Shown piece after piece: positions 16,274-20,463 of a DNA stretch of 41,213 nucleotides (position 1 is its first letter; every line of letters begins with the position of its first letter). The notes under the pieces are model-generated. The model saw only the letters and a list, made by a program, of their open reading frames with translations. It was not told the DNA's origin and did no database searches. The translations under genes were made by a program, and so were the position numbers. The stretch lies in the IMG/VR virus record IMGVR_UViG_3300024999_000204, positions 1 through 41,213 of that record, one strand, 5' to 3'. The DNA comes from a virus.

Positions 16274-16309
16274 AAAGATATAAAATAAATTTAAATGAGG
16301 GTGTTTATA

Positions 16310-16933
16310 ATGAATGAATTGAAATTGTTCGGTCAAAGGCTAAAAGAAGTAAGGGAAGAAAAGAATTTAACAACTAGAGAACTTGGCGAGATGCTCGGAA
16401 CAACTGCGGCTACTATATCGAGATACGAAACCGGAATACATGATCCCAAGAGAGTATTTATACAACAAACCGCATCTACGTTAAATGTTAACCCAGCTTG
16501 GTTGATGGGTGCTAATGTAGATAAATATATAGAAAAAGATGATTTAATGTTTAAAAGAGTACCTATATTGGGAACGATTGCAGCTGGACAGCCTATTTTA
16601 GCAGAAGAACACATAGAAGGATATGAATACGTCCCCGAAAACTCCAATATAGATTTTTGTTTAAGAGTAAAAGGTGATAGCATGATTAACGCTAGAATCT
16701 ATGATGGCGATATAGTTTATATTAGAAAACAACCTGATGTAGAAAATGGAGAAATAGCCGCCGTAATTGTAGATGGGGAAAACGCTACCCTAAAAAGAGT
16801 ATATAAAATTAATGGTTCAGTTATTCTCCGTCCCGAAAATCAAAACTATAAAGAAATGGTTTTTAGTAAAAAGGACTTGAAGGAAGTAAATGTTCTAGGA
16901 AAGGCTATATTTTTTAAATCGGAGGTTCGCTAA
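16310..16933 (+). CDS. CI/LexA-like repressor with S24 autocleavage domain
   Basis: 207 residues. N-terminal XRE helix-turn-helix (TTRELGEMLGTTAATISRYE, 21-40) binds the operators. The C-terminal peptidase S24 domain has the cleavage site Ala92-Gly93 (TIAAGQP), nucleophile Ser124 (KGDSM) and Lys162 (ATLKRVY). This predicts RecA-stimulated self-cleavage, so the prophage should be SOS-inducible. The second ATG is chosen because GAGGGTG lies just before it; the first (16295) has none. Its stop overlaps the integrase start (TAATG), so the two are made from one message. Confidence 0.9.
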   Translation: MNELKLFGQRLKEVREEKNLTTRELGEMLGTTAATISRYETGIHDPKRVFIQQTASTLNVNPAWLMGANVDKYIEKDDLMFKRVPILGTIAAGQPILAEEHIEGYEYVPENSNIDFCLRVKGDSMINARIYDGDIVYIRKQPDVENGEIAAVIVDGENATLKRVYKINGSVILRPENQNYKEMVFSKKDLKEVNVLGKAIFFKSEVR

Positions 16934-17997
16934 TGGCTTCAATAAGAAAACTAGCAAACGGGAATTATCAGGCTACAATATTTGTTGATCGTGATGCAAA
17001 CGGAAAGCAATTAAGAAAATACATCACAAAATCTACTGAAAAAGCATGTAAAGCGGCGGCTAGAGAACTAGAACAGGAAATTTATGACGGAAGATTTATT
17101 GATATTGAGAATGTGAAATTATCAACTTGGATGGATAAGTGGCTAGAACTAAACGAACAACGTTTATCCCCTTCAACATTTGTAAGTTATAAAATATACG
17201 TAGATGCCCATTTTAAGCCAGTATTAGGGAAATTCAAACTCAATAAGATAAATGAGATACACATAAAAGAGTTTATGAACGATAAATTAAAAACCTTATC
17301 CCCAACTACTGTTAGAAAACACATACTAGTTCTAAGAAGAATTTTAGAGGATGCTTTAAAACATAAGAATCCAGCTAGGAATGTAAAAGTTCCACATGCA
17401 GATGAGTACAAGCCTTACGTCCTGACAGCCTCAGAATTCGATTTAATTTATAATTCTGTAAAAGGAACAAGGGACGAGGTAATTGTATTGTTGGCGGCTT
17501 GGTGTGGATTAAGGAGAGGCGAAATATTCGCATTAAAGCCAGATGATATTAATGCAAAAACAAATACAATAAGAATAGATGAAAGTAGATCAATATCTGA
17601 AAAAGGTTACGTTGATAAAAAGCCAAAGAGCAAAAACGGATTAAGGTTAATTGCCGTCCCTGAATACTTAATGGGGTTGCTTGAGACATATCGCAAGCAA
17701 CAAAGGAAAATTACAGATAGAATATTCCAACTTAGACCCGATAACTATAGTTCTTACTTTGCTGAAATGATACAAAAAAGGAAACTTCCACCGATAAGGT
17801 TCCATGACCTCAGACATTTTCACGCAACCTGGTTATACAACCAGGGGATTCCAGACCATTATGCAGCTCAAAGGCTTGGACACGATATACACGTGTTAAA
17901 AGGGATATATCAACACTTAAACGTAGATAGAAAACTTGACATAGATGACAGCATAAGAAACAATCTCACCGCACTAAATACCGCACAAAAAGTTTAG
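16933..17997 (+). CDS. int: tyrosine-recombinase integrase
   Basis: 354 residues. N-terminal arm-binding domain (1-55, GNYQATIFVDRDANGK), SAM-like core-binding domain (62-150) and catalytic domain with Arg194 (GLRRGEI), Lys around 232-234, His291-x2-Arg294 (HDLRH), His317 (RLGH) and nucleophile Tyr326 (GIYQHL): the full set. It catalyses attP x attB recombination. GGAGG precedes the ATG inside the end of cI. attP lies 129 bases downstream in a tRNA-Leu fragment. No excisionase gene is recognised nearby. Confidence 0.95.
   Translation: MASIRKLANGNYQATIFVDRDANGKQLRKYITKSTEKACKAAARELEQEIYDGRFIDIENVKLSTWMDKWLELNEQRLSPSTFVSYKIYVDAHFKPVLGKFKLNKINEIHIKEFMNDKLKTLSPTTVRKHILVLRRILEDALKHKNPARNVKVPHADEYKPYVLTASEFDLIYNSVKGTRDEVIVLLAAWCGLRRGEIFALKPDDINAKTNTIRIDESRSISEKGYVDKKPKSKNGLRLIAVPEYLMGLLETYRKQQRKITDRIFQLRPDNYSSYFAEMIQKRKLPPIRFHDLRHFHATWLYNQGIPDHYAAQRLGHDIHVLKGIYQHLNVDRKLDIDDSIRNNLTALNTAQKV
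17976..17987. repeat. candidate integrase arm site in the int 3' end
   Basis: AAATACCGCACA recurs exactly at 18232-18243 and, inverted, as TGTGCGGTATT at 18201-18211; a shorter related copy (TGCGGTAT) is at 18035-18042. Repeats of this kind on both sides of the core are what arm-type integrase sites look like. Confidence 0.45.
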
Positions 17998-18125: not shown

Positions 18126-18183
18126 GGACTCAAAATCCAGTGATGGTGACATCATGCGGGTTCGACCCCCGCCTTCGGCACCA
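18126..18183 (+). other. attP: attP core: 3' part of a tRNA-Leu(CAA) gene
   Basis: The sequence runs from the anticodon arm (GGA-CTCAAAA-TCC, anticodon CAA), through a long variable arm (TGATGgtgaCATCA) and T-arm (GCGGG-TTCGACC-CCCGC), to the acceptor strand CTTCGGC-A-CCA. The 5' half (GCCGAAG and the D-arm) is absent and the anticodon stem already mismatches upstream, so this is not a working tRNA. It is the identity segment that restores the host tRNA-Leu on integration. Phage genes lie on both sides, so the site is intact and unrecombined. Confidence 0.85.
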
Positions 18184-18252: not shown

Positions 18253-18516
18253 TTACTTTTTAAAACTTACTCCGTCATGGAAACCCTGCCTATAAATTAT
18301 ATGTTCACTCTCGGAACCTATACAATCACATAAGTCACAATAATCCATAAACAATTTGAGATTTTCATTTATAAGATTTAATTTTAATTTCCTTACGATG
18401 TCTAACAACTGTTTTTCTTTAATTTGGATAGAAATATTTTTTACAATTATGTTGTCTGAAATATCGGTACATCTTCGAGCCAAGAATTCATCAAAATCTG
18501 CTACTTCTCCTACCAT
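18253..18516 (-). CDS. hypothetical small protein beside attP
   Basis: 87 residues, start ATG with GGAGG 7 bases upstream. Helical N-terminus, then CDLCDC and SEHIIYRQGFHDGVSF, a C-terminal pattern common in small uncharacterised Bacillota phage proteins (DUF6809-like; name uncertain). It is the nearest gene to attP and is divergent from the XRE regulator at 18711. Confidence 0.7.
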   Translation of the reverse strand: MVGEVADFDEFLARRCTDISDNIIVKNISIQIKEKQLLDIVRKLKLNLINENLKLFMDYCDLCDCIGSESEHIIYRQGFHDGVSFKK

Positions 18517-18587
18517 AATCAATCCTCCAATAATCATTATATTGAATCCCGATTAATATAAGTTTGTCACTGCAAACTTTTCTATGT

Positions 18588-18617
18588 TTTACAGTATACG
18601 ACAATTTATGACATAAT
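18588..18617 (+). promoter_or_regulatory. promoter of the XRE regulator 18711-19046
   Basis: -35 TTTACA (18588-18593), 18-bp spacer, -10 CATAAT (18612-18617). The leader that follows contains inverted repeats (AATGA/TCATT at 18641-18655; TTCCCA/TGGGAA at 18630-18661) that could be an autoregulatory operator or an RNA hairpin. Confidence 0.5.
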
Positions 18618-18710: not shown

Positions 18711-19046
18711 ATGAAATATGATATGAAATATTTAGGAGCTAGAATAAGAGAAGAACGAAAAAAACGCAAATTAACAATAGAACAATTAGCCGAATCAATT
18801 GATTTATCATCAGGATTTTTAACTAATGTCGAATTAGGAAGTAAAGGAATAAGTATTGAAAAACTTATTGATATTGCAAACTATTTTAATTTGATTATTG
18901 ATGATCTTTTAAATATAAATAAACAAACTCCCTCGTTTAAGCAAGAAAAACTTATTGAATTAACTCGTGATATGCCTGACGATAAATTCGAAATTTTAAT
19001 AGGCATGACTGAAGTGTTAATAAAGCCTCAATTAACTGAAATATAA
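18711..19046 (+). CDS. XRE-family transcription regulator
   Basis: 111 residues. The N-terminal helix-turn-helix is LTIEQLAESIDLSSGFLTNV (about 21-40) in a SinR/XRE-like domain; the C-terminal 40 residues form a dimerisation-type helix region. No peptidase domain, so it is not a second cleavable repressor. It starts the accessory block and may control it, or itself through the repeats in its leader. Confidence 0.85.
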   Translation: MKYDMKYLGARIREERKKRKLTIEQLAESIDLSSGFLTNVELGSKGISIEKLIDIANYFNLIIDDLLNINKQTPSFKQEKLIELTRDMPDDKFEILIGMTEVLIKPQLTEI

Positions 19047-19105
19047 AAGTATATAACTATAGAAAAAATATTTATCGGGATAATAAACTCAAAGGGGATA
19101 ACTTT

Positions 19106-19936
19106 ATGACCATTGTTATTTTATTGTTGATAATTTTCGGAGTATTGTATTATCGGAAAGTAAAACGCATAACAGATTCTGTTGCCATTAATACTAGCGC
19201 ATCTTTACCCGTGTTGAACACTACAGAATGCCTAACTAATGAATGCAATTTCTTTGTAGCAGGAATGAGCTATAACAATGACGATGGAACGAGTAGACAA
19301 TCGGCAATAAAACAGTGTGCCAAGAACCAAAACGTCATATTGAAGCACACACCAACACCAAAGTTTCCTTATGCTGTAGCTGTATTTGCTAATAATAAAC
19401 AATTGGGATATGTTACAGCTGAGCTAGCAGAAGAGATTTCCTCTTATTTAAACAAAGGATTGCCGATTTCCGCTTATATAGAAGAAATAAGAAAACCAAA
19501 TTCTGAATATAACTTTTACGGTTGTAAGGTTAAATTTAAAGTATCATTTCCTTATACTCCTCCGCAACCAACTCCATTGGAAGATTTAACCGAAGATGAA
19601 ATTAAACTTATAACGAATATAAGAACGATAATACTTGCAATGCCAAATGCCAGAAAGAAAAGCGTTGATATCAGAAAGTATAGCCAAGGTCATATTCATA
19701 TTGGATACATAGAAAGGAGTCAATGGTGGTTTGTTTCTTTGAAAATCGGCAAGAGAACCAAATACATAACAACTAATGAAAATTATTATAAAACTGATAA
19801 AATAAGTCTTGCAACTGTAGACGATGTTGAAAGCTGTAAGGCTCAAATTATTGCGTCCTATAATAATATGATGACACAAATTGAATCTGAAAAGCAACGT
19901 TTCAACCAGTACGAAAAGCTAGCCTACAAAGAGTAA
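19106..19936 (+). CDS. membrane-anchored HIRAN-domain protein
   Basis: 276 residues. A single N-terminal transmembrane helix (2-17, VILLLIIFGVLYY) with basic residues after it; then a HIRAN-like domain at 49-130 (FFVAGMSYNNDDGTSRQSAI ... PYAVAVFANNKQLGYVTAELAEEI), a fold that recognises DNA ends or ssDNA and is found in helicases such as HLTF; then an unknown C-terminal domain (165-255) with HIHIGYIERSQWWFVSLKIG and a coiled tail. AAAGGGG precedes the ATG and a terminator follows. Anchoring a DNA-binding domain at the membrane beside attP suggests interference with incoming DNA or phage exclusion; this is inference. Confidence 0.75.
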   Translation: MTIVILLLIIFGVLYYRKVKRITDSVAINTSASLPVLNTTECLTNECNFFVAGMSYNNDDGTSRQSAIKQCAKNQNVILKHTPTPKFPYAVAVFANNKQLGYVTAELAEEISSYLNKGLPISAYIEEIRKPNSEYNFYGCKVKFKVSFPYTPPQPTPLEDLTEDEIKLITNIRTIILAMPNARKKSVDIRKYSQGHIHIGYIERSQWWFVSLKIGKRTKYITTNENYYKTDKISLATVDDVESCKAQIIASYNNMMTQIESEKQRFNQYEKLAYKE

Positions 19937-19939
19937 CTC

Positions 19940-19963
19940 AGGAGCCAACCAAGCTCCTTTTTT
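19940..19963 (+). terminator. terminator of the HIRAN gene
   Basis: AGGAGC (19940-19945) pairs with GCTCCT (19953-19958) over a 7-base loop, followed by a run of T's to 19963. Typical rho-independent terminator. Confidence 0.75.
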
Positions 19964-20083: not shown

Positions 20084-20284
20084 ATGAGCATAGGAGAGGT
20101 TTTGAATTTATGTAAAGATATAAGTGAGAATATTTGTCTAATAAAGAGCTTGGGAAAAGATTGTTTTGAGGCTCACGAGCAATGCAACCATTATGGCGAG
20201 AAAACTGTCTATTTCTTAAAAGTCGAAAATAACAAGCTAGAAATTTTCGATACCTTAAAAGTAAAATTGGAGGTAATTATATGA
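20084..20284 (+). CDS. small protein, first of a tandem paralogue pair
   Basis: 66 residues (MSIGEVLNLCKDISENICLI...). It aligns along its length with the next gene: EV-x2-L-x-K, ICxI, D-x-F-x-AH, Y-x2-K, L-x-I-x-D are shared. GGAGG precedes the ATG and the stop overlaps the next start by ATGA. Alpha/beta fold likely; function unknown. Small co-translated proteins next to att in a temperate phage are candidates for immunity, toxin-antitoxin or anti-defence roles, with no motif to choose among them. Confidence 0.7.
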   Translation: MSIGEVLNLCKDISENICLIKSLGKDCFEAHEQCNHYGEKTVYFLKVENNKLEIFDTLKVKLEVII

Positions 20285-20463
20285 ATCTGCAAGAAGTCTT
20301 CGCATTGAGCAAAGAAAAAATTGATCGAAACATTTGTTACATCAATCATGTCGAACAAGATAAATTTATGGCTCATAGTTTTAGTAAAAACAATAGTGTA
20401 GTCAACCAATACGTTTTTAAAATAACGAAAGATAACGAATTAAAAATTATTGATGAGAATTAA
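20281..20463 (+). CDS. small protein, second of a tandem paralogue pair
   Basis: 60 residues (MNLQEVFALSKEKIDRNICY...), a diverged duplicate of the gene before it, with its own GGAGG site and ATGA overlap. The copies differ most in the middle (HSFSKNNSVVNQY against HEQCNHYGEKTVY), so they have probably specialised rather than serving as dosage copies. Confidence 0.7.
   Translation: MNLQEVFALSKEKIDRNICYINHVEQDKFMAHSFSKNNSVVNQYVFKITKDNELKIIDEN

Follow-up and report, generated by a model that had tools for sequence, protein, structure and literature searches.

A membrane-anchored HIRAN protein next to the attachment site of a temperate Bacillota phage, a candidate superinfection-exclusion factor

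Just beyond the attachment site of a temperate phage of Bacillota, a gene for an XRE-type regulator is followed by a gene for a HIRAN protein with a membrane anchor, and we read this pair, on the strength of sequence comparisons, as a possible ThaL-like factor for superinfection exclusion or defence that would be expressed during lysogeny. We put the probability of this reading at roughly 0.45. It is based on the recurrence of membrane-tied HIRAN proteins among phages, on the occupation by some of them of the slot of ltp, a known exclusion gene, and on the fusion of a HIRAN domain to the membrane domain of T4 Imm in another phage. The DNA analysed, referred to here as the window, is a virus record of 41.2 kb (41,213 nt).

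The XRE-HIRAN unit and the lysogeny region

The terminase and helicase encoded in the window are closest to those of Geobacillus, Paenibacillus and Clostridia phages. The lysogeny region, on the plus strand, contains a CI-like repressor with an S24 peptidase domain (16,295-16,933) and a tyrosine integrase (16,933-17,997), both assigned by profile matches; the former is the main repressor and is distinct from the XRE protein discussed below. Directly 3' of the integrase gene is a sequence resembling the 3' half of a tRNA-Leu(CAA), with CCA at its end (18,126-18,183, plus strand), flanked on both sides by ACCGCA-type repeats. ARAGORN detected no complete tRNA, and no matching attB was found among the genomes searched. 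This tRNA-Leu-like sequence is a reasonable attP core, and its position after the integrase and its flanking repeats support the original prediction's placement of the two genes next to attP. Several ACCGCA/TGCGGT repeats, spread around the core between 17,968 and 18,251, are probably integrase arm sites.

Following attP, the gene order is a short minus-strand ORF, the XRE gene, the membrane-HIRAN gene and an intrinsic terminator. The minus-strand ORF (18,253-18,537, 94 aa) has a match to DUF6809 that falls below threshold (E = 0.03). The XRE/Cro-CI-type helix-turn-helix regulator (18,711-19,046, plus strand, 111 aa) matches HTH_19 with an E-value of 2.2e-12, and the HIRAN gene (19,106-19,936, plus strand, 276 aa), recognised by both Pfam and PHROG, is preceded by the ribosome-binding-like sequence AAGGGGAT. 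Both reading frames were found where the original prediction had placed them, and the naming of the first as an XRE regulator holds. The two genes are separated by 59 nt and each has its own ribosome-binding site. The terminator (19,940-19,958, plus strand) begins 4 nt past the HIRAN stop codon. A promoter-like site, TTTACA-18-CATAAT with TG ahead of the second hexamer (18,588-18,617, plus strand), lies 94 nt 5' of the XRE start and is indicative only, the promoter-like sites overall numbering 19 against 16.9 by shuffling, which is not above expectation. The GC content of the XRE gene is 26%, compared with 36% for the whole window. Given the terminator, the promoter-like site and the low GC content of the XRE gene, the segment from 18,711 to 19,958 looks like a self-contained lysogenic-conversion (moron) unit. 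The prophage end opposite the integrase is the classical site of lysogenic-conversion genes, and the unit, being beside attP, would lie at the end away from the integrase in the prophage. Downstream of the HIRAN terminator are two small tandem paralogues (20,084-20,284 and 20,281-20,463) with 34% identity (E = 4e-7).

Anchor, fold and DNA-site motif of the HIRAN protein

Residues 1-20 (19,106-19,165, plus strand) are predicted to form a single N-terminal transmembrane helix with an N-out/C-in orientation. This segment is hydrophobic (Kyte-Doolittle 2.02), no charge precedes it and RKVKR follows it, and AlphaFold2 places a helix at residues 2-25, with pLDDT values of 76-89 across residues 1-20. 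By the positive-inside rule, the uncharged N-terminus and the RKVKR after the helix would put the HIRAN domain in the cytoplasm. That domain spans residues 47-146 (19,244-19,543, plus strand), with a DDGTSRQ motif at 59-65. It matches PF08797 with an E-value of 3.1e-7 (30.6 bits against a curated cut-off of 24.7), and the protein matches phrog_27141 with an E-value of 1.7e-15. AlphaFold2, given a nine-sequence alignment of relatives found in this study, returned a HIRAN fold with pLDDT values of about 70-93 for most of residues 41-150; the model made without an alignment was poor. Foldseek matched the model to the HIRAN crystal structures of human HLTF (E-values from 1.2e-4 to 7e-4, probability 1.00, target TM 0.56-0.62) and also to lp_0118 of Lactobacillus plantarum. 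The description of the protein as a membrane-anchored HIRAN protein is thus borne out by the hydrophobic helix and the Pfam match, and the structure prediction that had been proposed as a check gave the expected fold.

The rest of the protein, residues 158-276 (19,577-19,933, plus strand), was modelled by AlphaFold2 with low confidence as a helix, a beta-meander and a long helix. No Pfam family matched this C-terminal domain, and its similarity to the last 90 residues of the phrog_4225 phage endonucleases (E = 5e-4) is too weak to be of use, so its earlier description as a domain that could not be named still applies. We disbelieved the matches of this domain to PDB sequences, which were driven by composition, and disregarded matches to Bacillus phage PM1 (E = 0.4).

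In HLTF, Y72 and Y93 flank a pocket that holds two nucleotides (PMC4666394); the second of them is the tyrosine of NPYDKNA, a motif of the general form NPYDxNA. The corresponding site of the window protein, residues 81-93 (19,346-19,384, plus strand), is the degenerate HTPTPKFPYAVAV, in which NPY is kept as FPY and the Asp-x-Asn is deleted. When aligned it reads PTPKFPY---AVAV, with the tyrosine and the proline before it retained, and BLAST comparison with the pneumococcal and Imm-fused proteins described below puts the gap at the identical spot. The two stacking positions of HLTF have aromatic counterparts in the alignment, namely Y56 and the tyrosine of FPY (Y89). The Asp of the motif is mostly kept in the HIRAN domains of streptococcal, staphylococcal, clostridial and proteobacterial phages; in the membrane-HIRAN proteins of gut Bacillota phages, the canonical motif is likewise not recognisable. 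The fold of the window domain is that of the HLTF/Rad5 HIRAN, although the window protein has no helicase, no RING and no Asp-x-Asn. DNA-end binding by this copy is possible, but it cannot be taken as given.

Membrane-tied HIRAN proteins in other phages

Searches of viral contigs with the whole protein, its HIRAN part and its C-terminal part returned as a close homologue only one contig, which is 99.96% identical and represents the same phage rather than an independent sample. Beyond this near-identical contig, no close homologue was found in the phages, plasmids and genomes searched. The informative relatives came from looser two-sequence alignments, and the recurrence counts rest on loci picked by similarity, not on a random sample. 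Counted in this way, a HIRAN domain combined with a membrane anchor occurs in at least five phage lineages, represented by the window, the pneumococcal phages, IPP20 and Javan340, the gut Bacillota phages, and an alphaproteobacterial-type contig (L026). The search for homologues that was suggested with the original prediction therefore yielded membrane-tied HIRAN proteins in other phage lineages, several of which have the gene near their repressor and integrase.

The pneumococcal phages 11865 and phiARI0995b encode proteins of 304 aa, with a hydrophobic segment at about residues 97-136 and the HIRAN domain after it, and their gene order is repressor, (DUF955), HIRAN, integrase. In phage SM1 the membrane half of this protein is found without a HIRAN domain in the repressor-integrase slot, suggesting that the N-terminal module is a swappable anchor. 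This module, MKIGMRKPSLxxSLKARTT..., is common to phages of Streptococcus, Enterococcus, Lactococcus, Lactobacillus, Paenibacillus and others (examples are L012:3973-4170 and L023:3001-3438). The streptococcal phages IPP20 and Javan340 have the opposite arrangement, with the HIRAN domain at the front and the membrane segment C-terminal, again in the repressor-integrase slot. In Javan330, Javan467 and the staphylococcal phage JS01, the HIRAN gene of the repressor-integrase region encodes no membrane segment, and the HIRAN proteins of ZQG1 and Javan367 have no anchor either; with several phage HIRANs anchorless, the domain evidently does not need one. By eye, the N-terminal part of the JS01 protein (L021:2404-3261) looks PH/GRAM-like, and it has no Pfam match. 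The order repressor, HIRAN, integrase recurs in phages of both Streptococcus and Staphylococcus, and in staphylococcal as well as alphaproteobacterial-type phages a related HIRAN gene comes after that of the repressor.

In contig IMGVR_UViG_2788500277_000004 (L026), a T4-Imm membrane domain is fused to a HIRAN domain in a protein encoded right after an XRE gene (L026:3743-4288). The fusion matches PF14373, Imm_superinfect, with an E-value of 1.4e-16, phrog_1039, annotated as "immunity to superinfection", with an E-value of 5.6e-23, and HIRAN with an E-value of 2.5e-9. In L026 and in L042, a small helix-turn-helix gene diverges from the XRE gene, the Imm-HIRAN gene comes after the latter, and the integrase is further downstream; we infer that the host of this phage type is of the alphaproteobacterial kind. 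No paper linking Imm to HIRAN was found in the literature searched. PF14373-like helices may also be mere anchors. The window protein itself has no match to PF14373, and its helix is not Imm.

Three gut Bacillota phages (L033:3662-4363, L037:4001-4705 and L040:4001-4753) encode HIRAN-like proteins with an N-terminal membrane segment, none of which Pfam recognises. In each case the gene is a lone plus-strand gene amid minus-strand genes of the capsid region, as is typical of a moron. A match in a Fusobacterium phage (H65) was dropped, as the matching frame is not a HIRAN gene.

In phage TP-J34 the gene order is int, ltp, metalloproteinase, repressor, and ltp is a proven superinfection-exclusion gene (PMC3952083). 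The streptococcal membrane-tied HIRAN genes occupy the exact slot of ltp. Like them, Ltp is a membrane protein of the lysogeny module, in this case one that protects the lysogen, but it is a surface lipoprotein that works outside the membrane and has no HIRAN domain, unlike the window protein.

A transmembrane HIRAN protein of pneumococcal lysogeny modules was named thaL in 2025 (PMC12637031). The combination had been called unfamiliar in the original prediction, and this is true of the exact architecture of the window protein but not of transmembrane HIRANs in lysogeny modules more broadly. Both phrog_4721 and phrog_4654 are probably relatives of ThaL. The window protein resembles ThaL in being phage-encoded and lysogeny-associated and in having a hydrophobic segment with a cytoplasmic-type HIRAN domain, a comparison made with the streptococcal proteins described above standing in for the phiRMV8 sequence. 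The ThaL-type gene is between repressor and integrase, whereas the window gene is beyond attP with its own XRE gene. The anchors of the two are unrelated, and the streptococcal proteins lack the C-terminal domain of the window protein while keeping the canonical DNA motif that it has lost.

Proposed function and its alternatives

If the exclusion reading is right, the unit would be expressed in the lysogen under the control of its own XRE regulator, and the helix would hold the protein in the membrane with the HIRAN and C-terminal domains on the cytoplasmic side. There the protein might meet incoming DNA, or the complex through which a superinfecting phage brings in or replicates its DNA, and would block the establishment of that phage. 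Since the protein lacks the canonical Asp-x-Asn of the 3'-end pocket, it might touch DNA through the aromatic positions that it retains together with its C-terminal domain, or its target might be a protein. The original proposal of an exclusion or defence function, together with the anatomy on which it was built, fits the comparative evidence, but its idea that DNA ends are bound is on weaker ground here, owing to the missing Asp-x-Asn. Also against exclusion are the position of the window gene, which lies past the integrase and attP and not inside the repressor-integrase slot, the degenerate DNA-site motif, and the existence of phage HIRANs with no anchor.

Of the other explanations, the one that survives best, although we consider it improbable, is that XRE and HIRAN form a toxin-antitoxin-like or regulatory pair, in which HIRAN would be a membrane toxin or a DNA-damage sensor, silenced by XRE, that serves prophage stability or induction. 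The XRE gene is directly upstream, co-oriented and shares its terminator with the HIRAN gene, and in L026, too, the Imm-HIRAN gene comes directly after an XRE gene. However, the intergenic gap and the separate ribosome-binding sites make for a looser arrangement than in typical toxin-antitoxin pairs, the XRE protein of L026, with its divergent small helix-turn-helix gene, resembles a phage repressor, and for many related HIRAN genes there is no XRE gene of their own.

Next in rank, and likewise improbable, is action on single-stranded DNA imported during transformation, by which a membrane HIRAN protein would guard the prophage against recombinational removal or time its induction. The HIRAN domain of HLTF binds single-stranded DNA and a membrane location would suit the competence pore. 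Moreover, thaL received its name in work on pneumococcal prophages that resist deletion by transformation; of the three natural model prophages there, only the carrier of thaL is activated by imported single-stranded DNA (PMC12637031). The main text of that study, however, names thaL once, without an experiment, and ascribes activation to a C1-type regulator and RecA.

Close behind, we considered the possibility that the gene has no function at present and is carried as neutral or decaying cargo, as the degenerate motif and the failure to find close homologues in the phages, plasmids and genomes searched might indicate. On the other hand, the 276-aa frame is intact and the predicted fold is preserved, and the membrane HIRANs of the gut phages, also without a recognisable canonical motif, are intact in several contigs, suggesting a stable variant rather than decay.

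We regard it as quite improbable that the gene serves phage DNA metabolism, at the replication fork or in end processing, rather than exclusion. HIRAN domains are found in helicases, and small standalone HIRAN genes occur in early modules of lytic-type phages such as ZQG1 and DLP4 (PMC6469090), so that in these two phages, of Pseudomonas and Stenotrophomonas, the domain is present in lytic-type modules too. The attP-adjacent location, the dedicated terminator, the orientation and the membrane anchor of the window gene all speak against such a role, and the replication genes of the window are situated elsewhere, on the opposite strand.

A toxin-antitoxin or kinase-defence system of the HipA-HIRAN type (HipIN, PDC-M03), in which HIRAN would sense DNA and partner a HipA kinase, is very improbable and largely refuted: PDC-M03B of PADLOC matches the HIRAN part (E = 2.7e-8) and an anchorless HipA-HIRAN pair adjoins the integrase in Clostridioides difficile phage phiCDKH02, but there is no HipA_C (PF07804) match in the entire 41-kb record, the PDC-M03B match covers only positions 128-218 of the 232 in the profile (the phiCDKH02 protein covers 1-229, E = 1e-109), and the window protein has a membrane helix in place of a HipS-like N-terminus. 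In HipIN/HipL (PMC8262856), PDC-M03 and the diDNase-HIRAN-HipA islands (PMC11706625), HIRAN domains are carried on mobile elements, as in the window, may adjoin a phage integrase, and are predicted sensors of invading DNA ends; the sensing of invading phage DNA ends by HIRAN was already proposed for HipL and HipN (Gerdes 2021, PMC8262856). The window differs from HipIN/HipL in having neither HipA kinase nor HipS-like domain and in having a membrane anchor instead.

Returning to exclusion, a bolder version may be entertained, although we think it unlikely: membrane-tethered HIRAN proteins may be a general, convergently assembled DNA-end trap of the inner membrane and a new class of superinfection exclusion, of which the window copy would be a form with a remodelled pocket and one more domain at its C-terminus. 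Unrelated phages would have joined HIRAN to a single helix, to a C-terminal helix or to a T4-Imm domain, and the free end of DNA would be caught upon entry into the cell. The targets of most known superinfection-exclusion proteins are receptors, tail tips or the injection channel. Should the trap idea hold, phages would possess a means of exclusion directed against the free end that all injected DNA has, and prokaryotic HIRAN domains, which were called uncharacterised in 2024 (PMC11090510), would gain a first function. What gives the finding its value is less the window gene by itself than the repeated combination of HIRAN with membrane anchors, of which the fusion to Imm is one case. Recurrence in at least five lineages, with several kinds of anchor, in the ltp slot and in fusion with Imm, makes a testable family out of what was a one-off oddity.
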